Notes under the pieces: generated by a model
What the model saw: only the letters and a program-made list of their open reading frames with translations
The model's database searches: none
Told to the model about the DNA's origin: nothing
In this document: positions 54,736 through 64,000 of the stretch, one piece after another
Layout of the letters: every line of letters begins with the position of its first letter
Position numbering within the stretch: position 1 is the first letter of the stretch
Source of the DNA: Lunatibacter salilacus
GTDB taxonomy: Bacteria > Bacteroidota > Bacteroidia > Cytophagales > Cyclobacteriaceae
DNA: 64,000 nt
Assembly (NCBI RefSeq): GCF_009797935.1
Contig: NZ_VOLC01000001.1
Coordinates: 186,001-250,000 of the forward strand
Direction: 5' to 3'
Translations under genes and position numbers: made by a program

Positions 54736-55896
54736 TTAAGCCCCTTGACGTTTCAATTGGAACATTTTTAATTTTTCGACAGCCTGAAGTATTAACTCCG
54801 TATCCATCTCATGTACCTCTACGCCTTTACCTAATTCTTCCAACAACATAATGGTAAGCTCTCCGCCCAGGTGCTCCCGAAATTCCTCCAGACCTTTTAA
54901 TAGCATTTCGCCCGATAACTCAGGCACATATAGTTCAAAACCCAAGGTGTCGATAACGGAAACGATTTGATGGAGATCCTCCTGGCTTATCATATCCTTC
55001 AGGTAGGAGTAGGTAGAATCAAGAGCGATCCCTATGGCTACAGCCTCTCCATGCCTAACTTGGTAGCCCGTCAGGTGCTCAAGCTTATGGGCTGCCCAGT
55101 GTCCAAAATCCAAGGGACGGGATGAACCCGTTTCAAAAGGATCCTTACCGCCAATATGCGCCAAATGCATCTCAGCACATTTTATAATTAAGGTTTCCAT
55201 TGGTGCTTGCTCTCTATTGGCCAATGCCTTGGCGTTTGACGCAATCCAAGCAAAAAATGTAGCGTCCTTTATCAGCCCTACTTTAATCGCCTCTGATATT
55301 CCCGAACGCCAATCTCTGTCATCAAGGGTTTGTAAGAAAGTAAAATCGTTGATTACCGCATAGGGAGGAACGAATGTCCCCAAGTAATTTTTTTTCCCGT
55401 AGGCATTGATTCCGTTTTTTACACCTACACCAGAATCATTCTGGGAAAGCACTGTGGTAGGTATACGGATATGCCTTATACCTCTATGGGCAATAGCAGC
55501 AGCAAATCCTACCATGTCCAATACAGCCCCACCGCCTATCCCGATAATAAATGAATGGCGGTCAATGCCGAATTCGCTGGTAGCGTCCAAGATTTGCTGG
55601 AAGGATTTCTGGTCGTTTTTACTTTGCTCGCCGCCAGGTACGATAAGCGGGTCGGTAGCCAACACGAACAGATCCGAAAAGGCGGATGCATAGGTATGTA
55701 TTTTATCCAGGAGATCAGGGTGGGCGTCACTCACACCCTGATCAATGACTACATAGATTTTGGGAATCTTATCTCCCTTCAAGGTATCGGCAAGAAGGGT
55801 GTTTTCCTTGTCAAAAATATTTTCATCAAAATAGACAGGGTACCTAAAGGGTACGCTGAATGTCTGATTAAGTACGGTATGGTTCCCTTTTTTCAT
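54736..55896 (-). CDS. eboD: EboD: 3-dehydroquinate-synthase-like sugar phosphate cyclase
   Basis: A 386-aa sugar phosphate cyclase (AroB superfamily). The NAD site is IIGIGGGAVLDMVGFAAAIAHRG; zinc and substrate residues lie in RIPTTVLSQNDSGVGVKNGIN, GISEAIKVGLIKD and LDFGHWAAHKLE, with final His in VRHGEAVAIGIALD. It is longer than housekeeping AroB and lies inside ebo, so it is not the shikimate gene. The superfamily also makes cyclitols such as valiolone. Its product would feed the ebo pathway. Confidence 0.9.
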   Translation of the reverse strand: MKKGNHTVLNQTFSVPFRYPVYFDENIFDKENTLLADTLKGDKIPKIYVVIDQGVSDAHPDLLDKIHTYASAFSDLFVLATDPLIVPGGEQSKNDQKSFQQILDATSEFGIDRHSFIIGIGGGAVLDMVGFAAAIAHRGIRHIRIPTTVLSQNDSGVGVKNGINAYGKKNYLGTFVPPYAVINDFTFLQTLDDRDWRSGISEAIKVGLIKDATFFAWIASNAKALANREQAPMETLIIKCAEMHLAHIGGKDPFETGSSRPLDFGHWAAHKLEHLTGYQVRHGEAVAIGIALDSTYSYLKDMISQEDLHQIVSVIDTLGFELYVPELSGEMLLKGLEEFREHLGGELTIMLLEELGKGVEVHEMDTELILQAVEKLKMFQLKRQGA

Positions 55897-55976
55897 AGGT
55901 TTAGACTTCCGGTGACCGGAATAGCAGGGGTGATCGTTTTCTAATATACTATTTAAATTAACTCAATATGGATAGA

Positions 55977-56879
55977 TTAAGTTACGGCAAACTTTTTCGC
56001 AAGCCACAGCGAAATGGGAAGTAATGGCAAAATTGCCAACCCGATCCAAATTCCGGCAAAAGCAGCCGCTAATGCCGCATTCATGACGATTAGTGCGATG
56101 ACGCCGGATTTGACCGCTTTCCCAATTAGGGCAGGTTCCTCTCGCTGCATCGCTTTCCAAAGTGGCGGCAAGATCATATAGCCAAAGAGGACGATCAAAG
56201 GAAGTACCTGCCAAGCACCCATTCCATTTTCACGTAAGGAAATGGTCAATATAGAAACCAGTATAAGCAAATATAACCCAAATCCTGCTTGTAGGGCTAT
56301 TTTATTTTGACCGTGTACCTCCCCTCGGCTTATCATCGTGATAGCTGATATATAGGCAAGTGGAATTAAGGCAACATACCAATAATCACCAATAGATTCG
56401 GGAATGACGCTCATACCTAGGAGCAGGTTTGCACTACGGCAAAGCCCCATATTTATGGGGCCAAATATCCTTTGGTGTTTCCCCCATGCATCATATAATA
56501 CAGCGAACGCAGCAACGAAAACGGCCAATTCCCCGCTCCAATAGGACACCTTAAACCCGGCAATAATTCCCATCAAAAGCAAGGACAATGACAGTAAAAT
56601 AGCTCTTCCCAAGGGGACTTGACCACTTGGGATGGGACGTTCGGGCCTTTCTACCTTATCCAACTCCGCATCAAAGACATCGTTAAATGCAACCCCACCC
56701 CCATACAAACCAATAGTAGCAAGGGTCAACCAAAGAAAAGGAGCCAGATATTCCTCTGTTTGACCAGCTAGTAGAAAGGCTGTCGCACCTGCTATGGCAA
56801 ATCCGGCCCAAATATCCGAAATGGCGGTGACTATGTTTGCAGGCCGGGTTAGCCGCAGGTATGCCAGAAGTTTTTCCAT
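55977..56879 (-). CDS. eboC: EboC: UbiA family prenyltransferase
   Basis: A 300-aa inner-membrane prenyltransferase with about nine helices. The first Asp-rich motif is NDVFDAELDKVERPERPIPSG (NDxxDxxxD); the second is YDAWGKH near residue 135. It would attach an isoprenoid to a soluble acceptor, tethering it to the membrane. It lies 80 bp before eboD and 7 bp after eboB in the same operon. Confidence 0.92.
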   Translation of the reverse strand: MEKLLAYLRLTRPANIVTAISDIWAGFAIAGATAFLLAGQTEEYLAPFLWLTLATIGLYGGGVAFNDVFDAELDKVERPERPIPSGQVPLGRAILLSLSLLLMGIIAGFKVSYWSGELAVFVAAFAVLYDAWGKHQRIFGPINMGLCRSANLLLGMSVIPESIGDYWYVALIPLAYISAITMISRGEVHGQNKIALQAGFGLYLLILVSILTISLRENGMGAWQVLPLIVLFGYMILPPLWKAMQREEPALIGKAVKSGVIALIVMNAALAAAFAGIWIGLAILPLLPISLWLAKKFAVT

Positions 56880-56886
56880 GGAGGAA

Positions 56887-57795
56887 TTATCGCTTCACCG
56901 ATTCGGCGGTGCTGCTTTCTACCAATGGAGTCTGACCCCGCAATACGGAGTTTCCTTCCAATAGCTCTGTCTGATTGATAGCTTCCCGCTGTAACCAATG
57001 CTCTTCCTTGATCTGACCACTTTTTCCGTAGATGCTAAGGGCATTTTGATAACAGGTGGTGTGAATGTGTTCCTCCGGGATACCTCTTTGGCGCATGATA
57101 TTGGCCGTCTTCGGTACAGAAAGCGGATCACTTACTCCCCAATCAGCAGAACTGTCTACTATAATTCGCTCGGGGCCGTATTGCTGCACGACCACAGCCA
57201 TCCGCTCACTATCCATCTTGGAATGAGGGTAAATAGTAAATCCCGCCCAAAATCCACGGTCCAGCACATCTTTTACGGTCTCCTCGTTATTATGATCGAT
57301 GACCACCATGCTGGGATCAAGTCCATGTTCCATGCACACGTCCATACTTCTAAGTGTCCCTTTCCGCTTGTCGCGGTGGGGTGTATGGATCATTACCGGC
57401 AGATTTATTTCTTTCGCTAATTCGAGTTGAAGCCGAAAGAAGCGATCTTCCGCCTCCGTCTGATCGTCATAGCCTATCTCTCCTATGGCTACTACGCCTT
57501 CCTTGCCGGCATAGAGGGGGAGCAATTCCATGACCTCCTCTGCCAAGGCCACGTTGTTGGCTTCCTTGCTGTTGAGGCCAATGGTACAGTAGTGGACAAT
57601 GCCAAACTGCTTGGCACGGAATCGTTCCCAGCCTACAAGGCTGCTAAAATAGTCCTGGAAGCTGCCAACGGTAGTACGTGGCTGACCCAGCCAAAAAGCC
57701 GGTTCAATGACGGCAACAATTCCTGCCGCTTTCATGGCCACATAATCATCCGTAGTCCGGGAAATCATATGTATGTGTGGATCTATATATTGCAT
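56887..57795 (-). CDS. eboB: EboB: TatD family metal-dependent hydrolase
   Basis: A 302-aa amidohydrolase-fold protein. Metal ligands are visible in MQYIDPHIHMISR (HxH), GEIGYDDQTEAE (Glu), PVMIHTPHRDK and VVIDHNNEET (His), and IVDSSADWGVSDPL (Asp). TatD enzymes are DNases or deacylases; the ebo version is thought to hydrolyse a small substrate. It is separated from eboA by 103 bp and from eboC by 7 bp. Confidence 0.92.
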   Translation of the reverse strand: MQYIDPHIHMISRTTDDYVAMKAAGIVAVIEPAFWLGQPRTTVGSFQDYFSSLVGWERFRAKQFGIVHYCTIGLNSKEANNVALAEEVMELLPLYAGKEGVVAIGEIGYDDQTEAEDRFFRLQLELAKEINLPVMIHTPHRDKRKGTLRSMDVCMEHGLDPSMVVIDHNNEETVKDVLDRGFWAGFTIYPHSKMDSERMAVVVQQYGPERIIVDSSADWGVSDPLSVPKTANIMRQRGIPEEHIHTTCYQNALSIYGKSGQIKEEHWLQREAINQTELLEGNSVLRGQTPLVESSTAESVKR

Positions 57796-57897
57796 CGCTT
57801 TGTTGTTTTTGCTAACCTAGTTATTTTCTGCATCAATACAAAAACAACCGAGATTAGTAGGTTTCAGGTTCAATTAATTGGTATTTATCTTATGTAA

Positions 57898-58788
57898 CTA
57901 TTGAAACGGCACATATTGTTTACCCACCGTCTCCCAAGTGATTTCACCCGTTTCAATTTTCTCCTTTACATCTGGATGGCTATTTACAAGCTCCATTACT
58001 TCGGGGTGTTTGCTTGCCTTACAAGCAAGCATTCCTGCTTGAATTTCAAGACTATTTCCGTTTTGGAAAAGCTTTTTGATCAGATGTACATTCGTGTCGT
58101 CAATAAAGGGAGACACAAACCTCCACAACTCGGGCATTACACTTCGGTGGGCTGACCACCGCTCCCGCACGGCATCCAAAAGTGTTTCGGCCAACCCCCT
58201 ATTATTGCGGGCATCTATACCGATAATCTGGTACATGGGACGCTGGAGAAAAATGGCTTTTAAAACTAACTGGTTCCAAGCCATTTCGTTAAGTTGTTCC
58301 GCAGGAAATGGATTGTTTAATGCCACTGCATCGAATATGGTGGTCATATTTGATCTTAGACCTTCGGAAGCACGGGAGGCAAGCAGTTCCTGATGGGGGA
58401 GAATGCACAAGGCTGAATACAACGCTTCCTGCTCATATATATCCCCGGTTTCAAATAGCCGGCTGAGTTGTTTACGCCAGTTTTCTACAGGTTCGGCAGG
58501 CACATGCATGGCCAAATAGGCCCTTGCCGCCACCAACAGATTCCATGTCTCCGGTCGCCAATCTTTTCTCAAACTTCTAGCTATATCACTGTCACTAAGT
58601 GTGAGATTATCTTTTGGGAAAAAGCGGGAGGCTTGGCTAAAGGAGAGAAACAAGCTAGTACTCTTTTCACCTCCAGCAATCTTTTCAGCTTGCCTTTGCA
58701 GCCACTCAAAAGCAGTTGCATCAGCCTGCTTTTTTATAATTTCAAGCAAGTAGGCGGTTATCCGGGTATAATCAAATACGCTTTCCAT
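57898..58788 (-). CDS. eboA: EboA domain-containing protein
   Basis: A 296-aa soluble, helix-rich protein, first gene of the ebo operon. Conserved features are FEWLQRQAEKIAGG, LFLSFSQASRFFPKD, LARSLRKDW-like RSLRKDWRPETWNLLVAARAYLAM, and IDARNNRGLAETLLDAVRERWSAHR (heat-repeat-like helices). It has no known catalytic motif and the biochemical role is unknown. An ATG at 58788 is used; one codon upstream is a TTG. The 92 bp to the first hairpin repeat hold the operon promoter. Confidence 0.88.
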   Translation of the reverse strand: MESVFDYTRITAYLLEIIKKQADATAFEWLQRQAEKIAGGEKSTSLFLSFSQASRFFPKDNLTLSDSDIARSLRKDWRPETWNLLVAARAYLAMHVPAEPVENWRKQLSRLFETGDIYEQEALYSALCILPHQELLASRASEGLRSNMTTIFDAVALNNPFPAEQLNEMAWNQLVLKAIFLQRPMYQIIGIDARNNRGLAETLLDAVRERWSAHRSVMPELWRFVSPFIDDTNVHLIKKLFQNGNSLEIQAGMLACKASKHPEVMELVNSHPDVKEKIETGEITWETVGKQYVPFQ

Positions 58789-58807
58789 CAATTTCGGTGT
58801 ACTGGTA

Positions 58808-58845: not shown

Positions 58846-58879
58846 GACAAAAGAAAGGGGTTTTTGACAAGCGGACAAT

Positions 58880-58973
58880 GTTCAACCCCATACGGGGTTG
58901 GGAGTTCGAGATTTGTCCCGGTGCCGCGGGTTGGCACCCACGGTTATTGTTGTTCAGGCCCTTCAGGCCTGGG
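58880..58973 (+). repeat. Three-hairpin REP-like element, copy 1 (forward)
   Basis: About 94 bp with three stems: CAACCCC/GGGGTTG (58883-58900), CCGCGGGT/ACCCACGG, and CAGGCC/GGCCTG. GGGAGTTCGAGATT follows the first stem and GGTTATTGTTGTT joins stems two and three. It lies ~92 bp upstream of eboA. Confidence 0.9.
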
Positions 58974-59091
58974 TAGAAAGACCAATTTATTCCGTCCGAA
59001 ATTGTGACTACGGGAAATCACATTTGTTTCCAATTCTATCGCATAAATTGATGTCTGTTTCGCTATTCCAATTATATACTGCTTCGATACC

Positions 59092-59185
59092 GAAGCCTAT
59101 AGGGCTTCAACAACAATAACCCCGTGGTGAAACCCGGGGATTCAGGAAACATCCCCACCGCCCACAACCCCGTAGTGGGTTGAAC
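59092..59185 (-). repeat. Three-hairpin REP-like element, copy 2 (inverted)
   Basis: The minus strand reads GTTCAACCCACTACGGGGTTG, then a CCCCGGGTTTCACCACGGGG stem, the invariant GTTATTGTTGTT, and GAAGCC/GGCTTC as third stem. The third stem differs from copy 1 on both arms in a compensatory way. Confidence 0.9.
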
Positions 59186-59275
59186 AAGTCCTGCAGATCA
59201 CGTATCCACTCTAAGAATGTGATCACCTCTGCCATCAGACCGAGGCAATGAGTTCATTTTTCTAATCAAATATGG
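59186..59275. repeat. Conserved segment flanking element copy 2
   Basis: About 85 bp next to copy 2 that recurs next to copy 4 (59758-59845) with roughly 80% identity by eye. It shows that a larger unit, not only the hairpins, was duplicated. Confidence 0.75.
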
Positions 59276-59293: not shown

Positions 59294-59440
59294 AAGAAAA
59301 ATGTTTATAAAGACAAAGGCAGACTCATTTCCTATATAAAAGGCCAAAAAGAACATCACAAAAAGGAATCCTTTTTGGACGAATATAAACGGTTGTTGGT
59401 AGAAAATGGAATTGAATTCGATGAGCGGTATCTGTTTTAA
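59294..59440 (+). pseudogene. C-terminal remnant of a Y1/IS200-like (RAYT-type) transposase
   Basis: The open frame from 59294 to the TAA at 59438-59440 encodes NVYKDKGRLISYIKGQ, KEHHKKESFLDEYKRLL and ENGIEFDERYLF. This matches the conserved C-terminus of Bacteroidetes Y1_Tnp (REP-associated tyrosine transposase) proteins, where YIxxQxEHHxxxxFxxEY and a final DERYLF are typical. An in-frame TAA at 59291 and the missing HUH domain show it is only a fragment. It sits between inverted copy 2 and forward copy 3 of the hairpin element, linking element and transposase. Confidence 0.75.
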
Positions 59441-59453
59441 ATGATCTATCCAT

Positions 59454-59547
59454 GTTCAACCCCTCTCGGGGTTGGGAGTTCGAGATTGTCACGTTGACGT
59501 GGGTTGGCACCCACCGTTACTGTTGTTCAGGCCCTTTAGACCTGGGG
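59454..59547 (+). repeat. Three-hairpin REP-like element, copy 3 (forward)
   Basis: Same design as copy 1; the first stem is CAACCCC...GGGGTTG, the second GTGGGT/ACCCAC, the linker GTTACTGTTGTT, and the third stem has one mismatch (GACCTG). Confidence 0.9.
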
Positions 59548-59653
59548 TGGCCAACAGATTTATCCCAGTCGAAAGCATATCTGAGAAATAAAATATGATT
59601 GCATTTCAATCATTTGCACTAACAATAGAATTTTTTATCCAAGTTATATGCTT

Positions 59654-59757
59654 CTTCGCCACCGAAGCCTGTAGGGCTTCAACAACAATAACCCCGTGGT
59701 GAAACCCGGGGATAGCAGGAACATACATCCTGCCCGCAACCCCATAGCGGGTTGAAC
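59654..59757 (-). repeat. Three-hairpin REP-like element, copy 4 (inverted)
   Basis: Inverted copy closely similar to copy 2, with the same GTTATTGTTGTT linker and the compensated GAAGCC/GGCTTC-type third stem; its middle segment is ~10 bp longer. Confidence 0.9.
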
Positions 59758-59845
59758 AAGTCCTTCAGATTATGTATCCACTTTAAGAATATGATCACCT
59801 CTGCTATAAGTCCGAGAAAATGAGTTCATTTCCATATTAGTTGAG
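59758..59845. repeat. Conserved segment flanking element copy 4
   Basis: Counterpart of 59186-59275. Both copies contain a 19-codon minus-strand open frame (MNSxxRxxxRGDHILxVDT) whose differences include silent ones. Confidence 0.75.
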
Positions 59846-59864
59846 CTGCTATTGGGCACGTCAG

Positions 59865-59957
59865 GTTCAACCCCATACGGGGTTGGGAGTTCGAGATTGC
59901 CACGTTGCCGAGGGTTGGCACCCACGGTTATTGTTGTTCAGGCCCTTTAGGCCTGGG
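59865..59957 (+). repeat. Three-hairpin REP-like element, copy 5 (forward)
   Basis: Nearly identical to copy 1 (same first stem, CAGGCC/GGCCTG third stem). It ends 35 bp past the stop codon of the left-facing gene at 59993, so it may also serve as that gene's transcript end. Confidence 0.9.
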
Positions 59958-59992
59958 TCAGTGATTAGGTTTATCGTCAACGAAAAAATGTT

Positions 59993-61145: not shown

Positions 61146-62303
61146 TTAAATATTCTCCGGCTTAAACCCAACAAACACCATCTGATCTTCTGAGGGGTTG
61201 TTGTCGGGATGGTTGAGGGAAAGGTACAGTTTGCCGTCATGCGTAAAAAACATACGGGTATAAATGGTATTTACAGGCAAATCCACTTCCCCGACTTTTT
61301 CGAAATCACTGTTTAATATGATTACGGAAGGGATCTTATTATCCCAAGTCCGGTTTTTCCCACCCGGTCCTGCGTAATCCACTTTACGGTAAGCCAGGCG
61401 GTAGATCAATTGATTTTCCTCATCGTAGGCCAGTTCCCGGTAGGAGTTGGAGGTGACGTAGAATTCCTCATGCCCATCCATCTGCGGATTGTCCCAAGGT
61501 AAGGCATCTCCAAAGTACTTGCTTCCGGCTGCTTTTTCCCCCATTTCCCCTGTTTCCAAATCATAAATTAACACATTGTTGTAAAAGGGAATTCCAAAGA
61601 CTATGTACCGATTATCCTTCATTACATGAGAACTGTGGCTAAAATAAGCCCCGTGGACATACTTGTACAAATGGGCTGGAAGTTCAAACATATGCATTGC
61701 GGATTCCTCATCCATATCCGATATTTTCAAAAACATGGTTCCTGACCATTTCCCTGGCGCACTATAATCCGAATTCCCTCTAACAAATATGTAGAGATCC
61801 CCTTTTATCTTATCAACCATCAAAGGCTGTTGCGTATAGTAAAGCTGTATAGCAGGAAAATCCTTTCGCTCCACATGATGTGTATTTAAGGTTTTTTGAA
61901 GATTTCCTTTCAAATCATTAACATATAGCCGGACTCGATAGGAACTTCCGATAAGTAGGGTTGAGTCGGATAGCAGTTCAAATGCCCTGATAGAACCTAC
62001 CCCGTTTGGGCCTTCTTCCTGAAAGTGAATCTTGAAGTCGTCTTCACGTCTAGTCAATGAATAGAATTCAATTTCGTTGGTGTTTAGGTTGACGACACCG
62101 AGGTAACTGCTTCCGTTTATCTCACATTTTTTGATGTACCTGCTGTATACATTTGACCTGTATCCCATTGGAAATGTAAGTGTGTCGGTGGGAACCAACG
62201 TCATGCTCTCAGTGTATGCTCTCGGATCCGGATCCAGTCCTTTTTCCGTATCGCAAGACAGGAAAGCCAATAAGCAAAAAAGGAAAACCAAAATATCTCT
62301 CAT
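61146..62303 (-). CDS. DUF4221 family lipoprotein (beta-propeller)
   Basis: A 385-aa outer-surface or periplasmic lipoprotein with lipobox CLLAFLSC. The body is a repeated beta pattern of propeller type (YLGVVNLNTNEIEFYSL, LLIGSSYRVRLYVNDLKG, YIVFGIPFYNNVLIYDLETGEMG, KLYLSLNHPD). DUF4221 proteins are frequent in Cyclobacteriaceae; the function is unknown. A nearly identical second copy begins about 2.2 kb away on the same strand. It would be transcribed ahead of the hydrolase-like gene. Confidence 0.85.
   Translation of the reverse strand: MRDILVFLFCLLAFLSCDTEKGLDPDPRAYTESMTLVPTDTLTFPMGYRSNVYSRYIKKCEINGSSYLGVVNLNTNEIEFYSLTRREDDFKIHFQEEGPNGVGSIRAFELLSDSTLLIGSSYRVRLYVNDLKGNLQKTLNTHHVERKDFPAIQLYYTQQPLMVDKIKGDLYIFVRGNSDYSAPGKWSGTMFLKISDMDEESAMHMFELPAHLYKYVHGAYFSHSSHVMKDNRYIVFGIPFYNNVLIYDLETGEMGEKAAGSKYFGDALPWDNPQMDGHEEFYVTSNSYRELAYDEENQLIYRLAYRKVDYAGPGGKNRTWDNKIPSVIILNSDFEKVGEVDLPVNTIYTRMFFTHDGKLYLSLNHPDNNPSEDQMVFVGFKPENI
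61155..61783 (-). repeat. Long direct repeat, copy 1 (3' part of the DUF4221 gene)
   Basis: At least 629 bp match 63372-64000 at a constant offset of 2217 bp with only a handful of differences seen (for example near the stop and at ~61757-61770). The repeat continues past the window end. Confidence 0.95.
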
Positions 62304-63359: not shown

Positions 63360-64000
63360 TTATTTTATCTTCTCCGGCTTAAACCCCACAAATACCATCT
63401 GATCTTCTGAGGGGTTGTTGTCGGGATGGTTGAGGGAAAGGTACAGTTTGCCGTCATGCGTAAAAAACATACGGGTATAAATGGTATTTACAGGCAAATC
63501 CACTTCCCCGACTTTTTCGAAATCACTGTTTAATATGATTACGGAAGGGATCTTATTATCCCAAGTCCGGTTTTTCCCACCCGGTCCTGCGTAATCCACT
63601 TTACGGTAAGCCAGGCGGTAGATCAATTGATTTTCCTCATCGTAGGCCAGTTCCCGGTAGGAGTTGGAGGTGACGTAGAATTCCTCATGCCCATCCATCT
63701 GCGGATTGTCCCAAGGTAAGGCATCTCCAAAGTACTTGCTTCCGGCTGCTTTTTCCCCCATTTCCCCTGTTTCCAAATCATAAATTAACACATTGTTGTA
63801 AAAGGGAATTCCAAAGACTATGTACCGATTATCCTTCATTACATGAGAACTGTGGCTAAAATAAGCCCCGTGGACATACTTGTACAAATGGGCTGGAAGT
63901 TCAAACATATGCATTGCGGATTCCTCATCCATATCCGATATTTTCAAAAACATGGTTCCTGACCATTTCCCAGGCTCATTATAATCCGAATTCCCTCTAA
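63360..64000 (-). CDS. Second DUF4221 family protein, 3' part (cut by window end)
   Basis: The C-terminal ~213 residues of a DUF4221 lipoprotein; the start lies beyond the window. The visible protein is identical to the first copy at nearly every position (the tail differs as KPEKIK versus KPENI). Such identity at DNA level means a recent duplication or gene conversion. It faces the same way as copy 1, with the GNAT-like pair lying between on the other strand. Confidence 0.9.
   Translation of the reverse strand, partial: RGNSDYNEPGKWSGTMFLKISDMDEESAMHMFELPAHLYKYVHGAYFSHSSHVMKDNRYIVFGIPFYNNVLIYDLETGEMGEKAAGSKYFGDALPWDNPQMDGHEEFYVTSNSYRELAYDEENQLIYRLAYRKVDYAGPGGKNRTWDNKIPSVIILNSDFEKVGEVDLPVNTIYTRMFFTHDGKLYLSLNHPDNNPSEDQMVFVGFKPEKIK
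63372..64000 (-). repeat. Long direct repeat, copy 2
   Basis: Partner of 61155-61783. Visible differences are few and mostly silent or near the ends; the last ~25 bases before the window end still match apart from four bases. Confidence 0.95.

Follow-up and report, generated by a model that had tools for sequence, protein, structure and literature searches.

Introduction

The textbook example of a transposase that keeps company with short repeats of its own is the REP/RAYT system, with examples in the REPtrons of E. coli and Stenotrophomonas (PMC8266576, PMC6006769, PMC2817692). In the classification of Quentin et al. 2018 (PMC6006769), the RAYT or TnpA_REP enzymes form class 2 and have the Y motif Y---NP. 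The signature Y---Q--HH belongs there to subclass 1.2 of TnpA_Y1, which is further described by the HuH motif DH[IV]H, a length of about 148 aa and the W motif WQ. Table 1 of that paper gives 'no' under REP for subclass 1.2; REPs were sought there automatically among hairpins with a foot of GT[AG]G, and some classes were also inspected by hand. Among the papers listed by searches of open-licence literature, none describes repeats cognate to subclass 1.2 in its title or abstract. Hairpins also define the motif Acido-Lenti-1 (RF01687), graded as 'probably' RNA in its founding paper (PMC2864571) and described in a 2026 paper as having a little-known function (PMC13298647).

Here, we analysed a 64-kb stretch of DNA (the window, to which all positions refer unless another record is named), in which a preliminary description had placed the tail of a RAYT-like transposase inside an array of hairpin elements.

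Results

The fragment at 59294-59440

The open frame 59294-59440 of the forward strand encodes KKNVYKDKGRLISYIKGQKEHHKKESFLDEYKRLLVENGIEFDERYLF, which ends in DERYLF directly before the stop codon. An in-frame TAA stands immediately 5' of this frame, and the only ATG, GTG or TTG codons in it are three TTGs from 59375 on, indicating a gene remnant without a usable start. The transposase-like residues begin at 59306, so that the remnant (59306-59440, forward strand) consists of the last 44 codons and the stop, with the catalytic-Tyr helix YIKGQKEHH and the C-terminal tail. An intact Y1 transposase encoded at another place in the same genome has a C-terminus 51% identical to these 44 residues (E 3e-9), and for intact genes of relatives the identity reaches 82% (36/44 residues, E 5e-19).

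Profile searches against Pfam and NCBIfam with the 44 residues alone returned a sub-cut-off H-NS match or nothing, and no Y1_Tnp. Pfam Y1_Tnp extends only as far as the Y--Q motif, which lies close to the beginning of the fragment, and this explains why the fragment misses it. Four intact homologues matched the model with E values of 6e-21 to 4e-30. The alignment to Y1_Tnp that had been suggested as a check therefore failed for the fragment itself and succeeded for its homologues. Taken together, the tail matches and the homologues' Y1_Tnp matches bear out the claim of a Y1 transposase tail in a hairpin array: judged by homology, 59306-59440 is the tail of a Y1 (HUH) transposase gene that lacks its front part.

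The array and its surroundings

The repeated element is about 99 nt long and has three hairpins (H1, H2 and H3), the last two separated by an unpaired linker, and it occurs in two subtypes, F and R. We built a covariance model from 24 copies, including the five of the window. At E <= 0.01, this model found exactly five places in the window, which are the copies that had served as training rows. They lie in the order + - + - +. The forward element F1 (58877-58975, +) was placed by the structure model, and synteny with G018, a genome of the same family and another genus, breaks off at the first base of F1. The inverted element R1 of the R subtype (59088-59188, -) was placed by the structure model and the alignment of copies. 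The transposase remnant lies between R1 and the forward element F2 (59451-59548, +), just as the preliminary description had it, and the GTTCAACC of F2 starts 13 nt past the transposase stop, as in intact relatives. The structure model and the alignment of copies also placed the inverted element R2 (59660-59760, -), and the structure model placed the forward element F3 (59862-59959, +), which forms the right edge of the array.

The R-F spacers after R1 (59189-59259) and after R2 (59761-59831) resemble each other, and the first also resembles one in G034, a genome of the same genus. The spacer after R1 stands where intact tnpA genes have their promoter stretch. Since R1 is followed by a spacer of the R-F type and not by the stretch that precedes intact genes, the front of tnpA was lost by some rearrangement.

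A DNA search of the whole genome (6.8 Mb, 68 contigs) found the repeat only in the array and at one place on contig C65. When the locus was compared with 39 relatives, matches were found in five and a syntenic empty site in none. No Rfam family exceeded its gathering score on the array, and matches to lncRNA, snoRNA and miRNA families were dismissed as chance.

To the left of the array (54736-58791, -) lie a gene with an EboA domain and then an EboC-like prenyltransferase, a TatD-like hydrolase and a dehydroquinate-synthase-like gene; from these neighbors, the array seems to border an ebo cluster. G018 has EboA-like, TatD-like and prenyltransferase genes in kept order. To the right, two near-identical DUF4221 genes (61146-62303 and 63360-63998, both -) share one orientation with about 1 kb between them, the second running past the window end.

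The enzyme and its class

The proteins of the clade nearest the window are 148-149 aa long and have Tyr114 and the motif Y---Q--HH. The ten closest homologues have an HUH motif of DHIH, DHLH or NHIH and a Y motif resembling YIKxQKxHH, and the motif of every one of the 73 loci in the wider group described below shows Q--HH. The W motif is WG in this clade and WQ in many other proteins of the group. Three proteins exceeded the cut-off of 55 of the NCBIfam model transpos_IS200 (NF033573), with scores of 71.8, 70.6 and 75.4. With the model REP_Tyr_transpos (NF047646, cut-off 80), L086 scored 20.5, L019 scored 41.1 and L094 gave no match. An AlphaFold model of a clade enzyme, of moderate confidence (mean pLDDT 76, from ten sequences) and used for the fold match alone, was best matched in Foldseek by the TnpA of ISDra2 and IS608 (E about 1e-8; top 2xm3, E 1.7e-8), and the E. 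coli RAYT 4er8 was a poorer match (E 1.5e-5).

Assigned by signature, the enzyme would be a TnpA_Y1 of subclass 1.2, in the IS200-like lineage. RAYT membership, as previously claimed, was rejected, since the motif is Y---Q--HH and not Y---NP, and the enzyme stays far below the REP cut-off (20.5 against 80) and passes that of IS200/IS605 (71.8 against 55).

We found six Y1_Tnp matches in the window's genome. The only full-length and intact one is on contig C12, the one on C11 just outside the window is split, and the remaining four carry stops. The C12 protein shares 39% identity with the cognate clade, and a different repeated element adjoins it; by eye, another repeat rich in hairpins comes after this intact gene in three direct copies (at L019:1920-2440, outside the window). 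None of the six matches is an intact cognate enzyme for the array, and the window locus is therefore a relic. The suggestion that the array is still mobilised in trans does not hold for this genome, and the array is probably inert. In this C11 copy, just right of the window (L020, G000:C11:250000-255000), two transposase-like ORFs that look IS3-like by eye interrupt the Y1 transposase gene, and AGGGGCGTAGCCCTG-type hairpin repeats flank the gene on both sides.

Intact homologues are flanked by the same element

We searched 295 genomes of the family and found the repeat in 23 (E <= 1e-6) and a relative of the tail in 147 (E <= 1e-4). Our sample comprised the ten genes that match the tail best, leaving aside the window itself, and every one of them is intact (tail identity 67-82%). 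Nine of them come from Cyclobacterium lianum, C. roseum, C. salsum, C. jeungdonense, C. qasimii, two further Cyclobacterium strains, Lunatimonas lonarensis and a Cyclobacteriaceae MAG. Whether intact homologues are flanked by the same hairpin element had been set beforehand as the decisive test, and the three-hairpin element was found on both sides of tnpA in 10/10 loci. The positions are nearly constant. An inverted copy ends 44-58 nt upstream of the start codon in eight loci (the exceptions are L094 and L093), and a forward copy begins 5-18 nt downstream of the stop in nine (the exception is L094).

One might take these hairpins for the two ends, left and right, of a common insertion sequence of the IS200 type, with arrays left over from tandem or nested insertions. 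The NCBIfam name of the enzyme, IS200/IS605 family transposase, and its nearest solved structures, the TnpA of ISDra2 and IS608, point in this direction. However, most of the ten loci carry several elements per side, arranged as inverted F-R pairs; in Cyclobacterium, F-R pairs without tnpA lie at many places; and tnpA copies within one genome are mostly divergent, not near-identical. We therefore consider this explanation unlikely.

Repeats beside the wider group of transposases

We examined 73 loci, selected by similarity to the window tail and not at random: 29 best matches, 40 picked by eye from ORF length and position but not from repeats, three records of other groups and one of the window's own genome. 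The flanks were compared over 600 nt on each side, with a cut-off of 17 that we set just above the top of 150 shuffles (16.1). A repeat common to both flanks was found in 61/73 loci, compared to 1/67 in the control at 2 kb distance, where the single case lay inside a long array. Other genes of the same loci shared a repeat between their flanks in 3/49 cases. Any flanking repeat was found in 69/73 loci, and the 600-nt test detected none in L098, L151, L159 and L174. Odd proteins were retained in this test, namely L090 with an internal Met (68 aa; the true start is GTG), the long L112 (219 aa) and the short L098 and L157. The repeated segments also fold better than shuffled sequence (median z -4.1, n=60, 70% under -3), whereas far stretches do so hardly at all (-0.5, n=57, 4%).

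The structure model found the element in at least 58/73 loci among the matches listed (counted by hand; training rows had come from seven of these loci). Specifically, it was listed for 57/60 loci whose proteins do not begin with MAN[TS], three of these 60 proteins being read from an internal or missing start, and for 1/13 loci with MAN[TS] proteins (153-167 aa). The 15 loci with no listed match thus include 12 of the MAN[TS] type, and this sister clade seems to own another kind of repeat. The best 150 model matches are concentrated around the gene: 125 are no more than 800 nt away from tnpA, another 14 are 800-1600 nt away and 11 are more distant, despite more sequence being available farther out (available lengths were summed over 73 loci, and the search covered 63).

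Furthermore, the similarity of the repeats climbs with TnpA identity (70 loci, Spearman 0.63), and 0/300 permutations were equally high.

Structure of the element

H1 pairs CAACCC with GGGTTG, and H2 and H3 differ between F and R through compensatory changes. In the 24 copies of the model, 93.3% of the cells are paired, and we counted 49 two-sided changes compared to 17.6 after shuffling. Further pair types were not elevated in these copies (10 compared to 12.1 shuffled), and the H1 pairs were mostly invariant. We also aligned 146 distinct rows from non-training loci, an alignment that leans to the model. Here, covariation was 0.527, compared to 0.170 for shuffled and at most 0.111 for slid alignments, and two-sided changes were found in all seven H1 pairs.

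A model-free scan for the hairpin-linker-hairpin layout, counting both strands, found 247 motifs in the flanks (52/73 loci, 101 kb) compared to 5 in far sequence (3 loci, 78 kb). The linker starts with [CT]TA[CT] in 110/150 model matches (29/42 loci), although the model itself was trained on that linker; the same start was found in 64 of the 247 model-free motifs, from 30 loci, again with both strands counted.

The preliminary description had noted a GGGAG past the first stem and related it to the GTAG/GGAG tetranucleotide as a recognition mark. GGGAG is indeed present in the three forward copies of the window, but it is not a general feature of those of relatives. Of the forward copies that were parsed, 11 of 41 have GGAG or GTAG directly past the first stem, and among the parsed inverted copies 3 of 48 do (49 and 50 copies in total). 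GGGAG as a guide tetranucleotide was rejected, as it is not conserved across the relatives' copies.

Compensatory changes in a conserved structure are equally expected for RNA. The hairpins may thus work as RNA, as terminators, stabilisers or sRNAs for tnpA or its neighbors, and have spread by recombination with no action of TnpA; Acido-Lenti-1, which has a similar layout, is filed by Rfam as sRNA, in keeping with the 'probably' of its founding paper (PMC2864571). But copies of the element are found on either strand, upstream as well as downstream of tnpA, and their sequence follows the identity of the TnpA beside them. We regard a purely RNA-based origin as improbable, and the conserved layout could still partly reflect an RNA function.

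Dispersal of F-R pairs

C. roseum has at least 22 match rows; they fall on eight contigs at no fewer than 17 places separated by more than 2 kb, and one of these places is the tnpA locus. At the site of L267 and L268, an F-R pair is present in two species (G152 and G194), and there is none between the matching flanks in G122, G173, G237, G258 and G067. In G237 and G258, the right flank starts at the element end and the left flanks are rearranged.

L123 was rejected as a clean empty site, since it has a shared element and a deletion in G152. The breakpoint of this deletion, a single case in C. roseum (L249, G152:C33, junction near 2334), lies inside the conserved linker of an F element, which might be where cleavage is expected if TnpA cuts in the linker. 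At L123, L251, L254, L257 and L260 of Cyclobacterium, the dispersed F-R pair is carried by an element of about 425 nt with the terminal inverted repeats TAACCT[AG]AGTTCGA.

This element is the basis for the least probable explanation, that another transposase dispersed the repeats through terminal inverted repeats as a MITE carrying an F-R pair by chance, which is very improbable, since the window has no such ends with up to 2 mismatches, the L267 and L268 copies are alike from F to R only, and the link to tnpA extends across 73 loci with dissimilar repeat sequences.

We consider movement of the repeats by the Y1 enzyme likely. Against it, no clean empty site was found, the difference at L123 is a deletion, and some pairs ride the element bounded by terminal inverted repeats.

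Matches to Acido-Lenti-1

We compared the elements with RF01687, whose gathering score is 37. Window element F1 scored 16.8 bits, and the element of L093 scored 24.7 bits, with E 0.19 in a 62-kb search and E 0.0005 for its 161 bases alone. Other loci of the window's genome reach the gathering score, for example on C3 and C6; on C6, two RF01687 copies lie beside a tnpA relic, the nearer one 48 nt off. Among 296 Bacteroidota genomes, RF01687 was found in 61 (E <= 1e-3) and above the gathering score in 29, with 20 or more matches in two genomes. Of 30 RF01687 loci inspected, a tnpA of the group was present within about 1.5 kb on either side in six (gaps of 45-329 nt) and absent in 24. By our estimate, chance would place tnpA beside well under one in 30, given a handful of such genes per genome. 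A repeat shared by the flanks was found in 3 of the 6 loci with tnpA. RF01687-type places were seen at L093:2746-2791, at L022:1304-1349 and 1556-1601, and in L297, L304, L309, L315, L316 and L321.

Discussion

The three-hairpin structure is kept, its place beside tnpA is constant, repeat and enzyme diverge together, and a solo F-R pair is present in some species and absent from others. In our judgment, the locus is probably a decayed REPtron-like unit, in which a Y1 transposase with the subclass 1.2 signature once lay inside an array of cognate repeats on which it would have acted. The rarity of the element in the window's own genome speaks against this reading.

We propose the following mechanism. 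The transposase would formerly have resided in an array of its own three-hairpin repeats, with F and R elements as inverted pairs. It may bind the folded element on one DNA strand and use Tyr114 to cut close to the hairpins, perhaps within the linker. F-R pairs would then be moved or copied in trans, by analogy with the role proposed for RAYTs in the spread of REPs. The gene in the window has lost its 5' part, no intact cognate enzyme is left in the genome, and the array is probably inert.

A broader proposal, which we hold in even balance, is that an IS200-like lineage, TnpA_Y1 subclass 1.2, has composite single-strand DNA substrates of the form H1-H2-[CT]TA[CT] linker-H3 that co-evolve with the enzyme, and that Acido-Lenti-1 is their H2-linker-H3 part and not a small RNA. 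Acido-Lenti-1 in Bacteroidota is proposed to be a transposase substrate.

If this is true, the two main classes of Y1 transposases would each contain enzymes partnered with repeats, and this would include the IS200-like branch that was surveyed as repeat-free. Orphan Bacteroidota enzymes would gain a concrete candidate substrate, three hairpins and a conserved linker, and one kind of hairpin repeat in Bacteroidota genomes would be explained. A family filed as RNA may shift to the DNA world.

Comparison with known systems

Like the REP/RAYT systems (PMC8266576, PMC6006769, PMC2817692), the loci have a single-copy-type Y1 gene flanked by its own hairpin repeats, inverted pairs, solo copies elsewhere in the genome and a separate repeat for every tnpA lineage. 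However, the enzyme is class 1 by signature (Y---Q--HH, IS200-like), whereas theirs is class 2 (Y---NP); the element has three hairpins over about 99 nt instead of one palindrome of 20-50 nt; and it has no conserved GTAG/GGAG foot. Thus, of the REP/RAYT system with a three-hairpin substrate envisaged in the preliminary description, the three-hairpin repeats, flanking the gene and dispersed elsewhere in genomes, stand, and the RAYT does not.

Subclass 1.2 of TnpA_Y1 as described in PMC6006769 agrees in Y---Q--HH, a length of about 148 aa, the occurrence in Bacteroidota and the few divergent copies, and in part in the DH[IV]H-type HuH, since DHLH and NHIH also occur among the ten closest homologues. 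It differs in the 'no' of Table 1, whereas we found cognate repeats beside most members examined, and in the WQ of that table, where the clade nearest the window has WG.

Acido-Lenti-1 resembles the H2-linker-H3 part of the element in its 8-bp hairpin, a linker starting with C/T-T-A and a second hairpin with a TTC-type loop. It differs in being without H1, and both the window element (16.8 bits) and the best element seen in the family (24.7 bits) score below its gathering score.

The enzyme shares the HUH/Y1 fold of IS200/IS605 elements such as IS608 and ISDra2 (Foldseek 2xm3), which likewise have hairpins near the gene. The target of IS608 is TTAC, and this resembles the [CT]TA[CT] start of the linker in our elements. 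Unlike IS200/IS605 elements, which have one subterminal hairpin per end, the loci described here carry inverted three-hairpin arrays on both sides of the gene.
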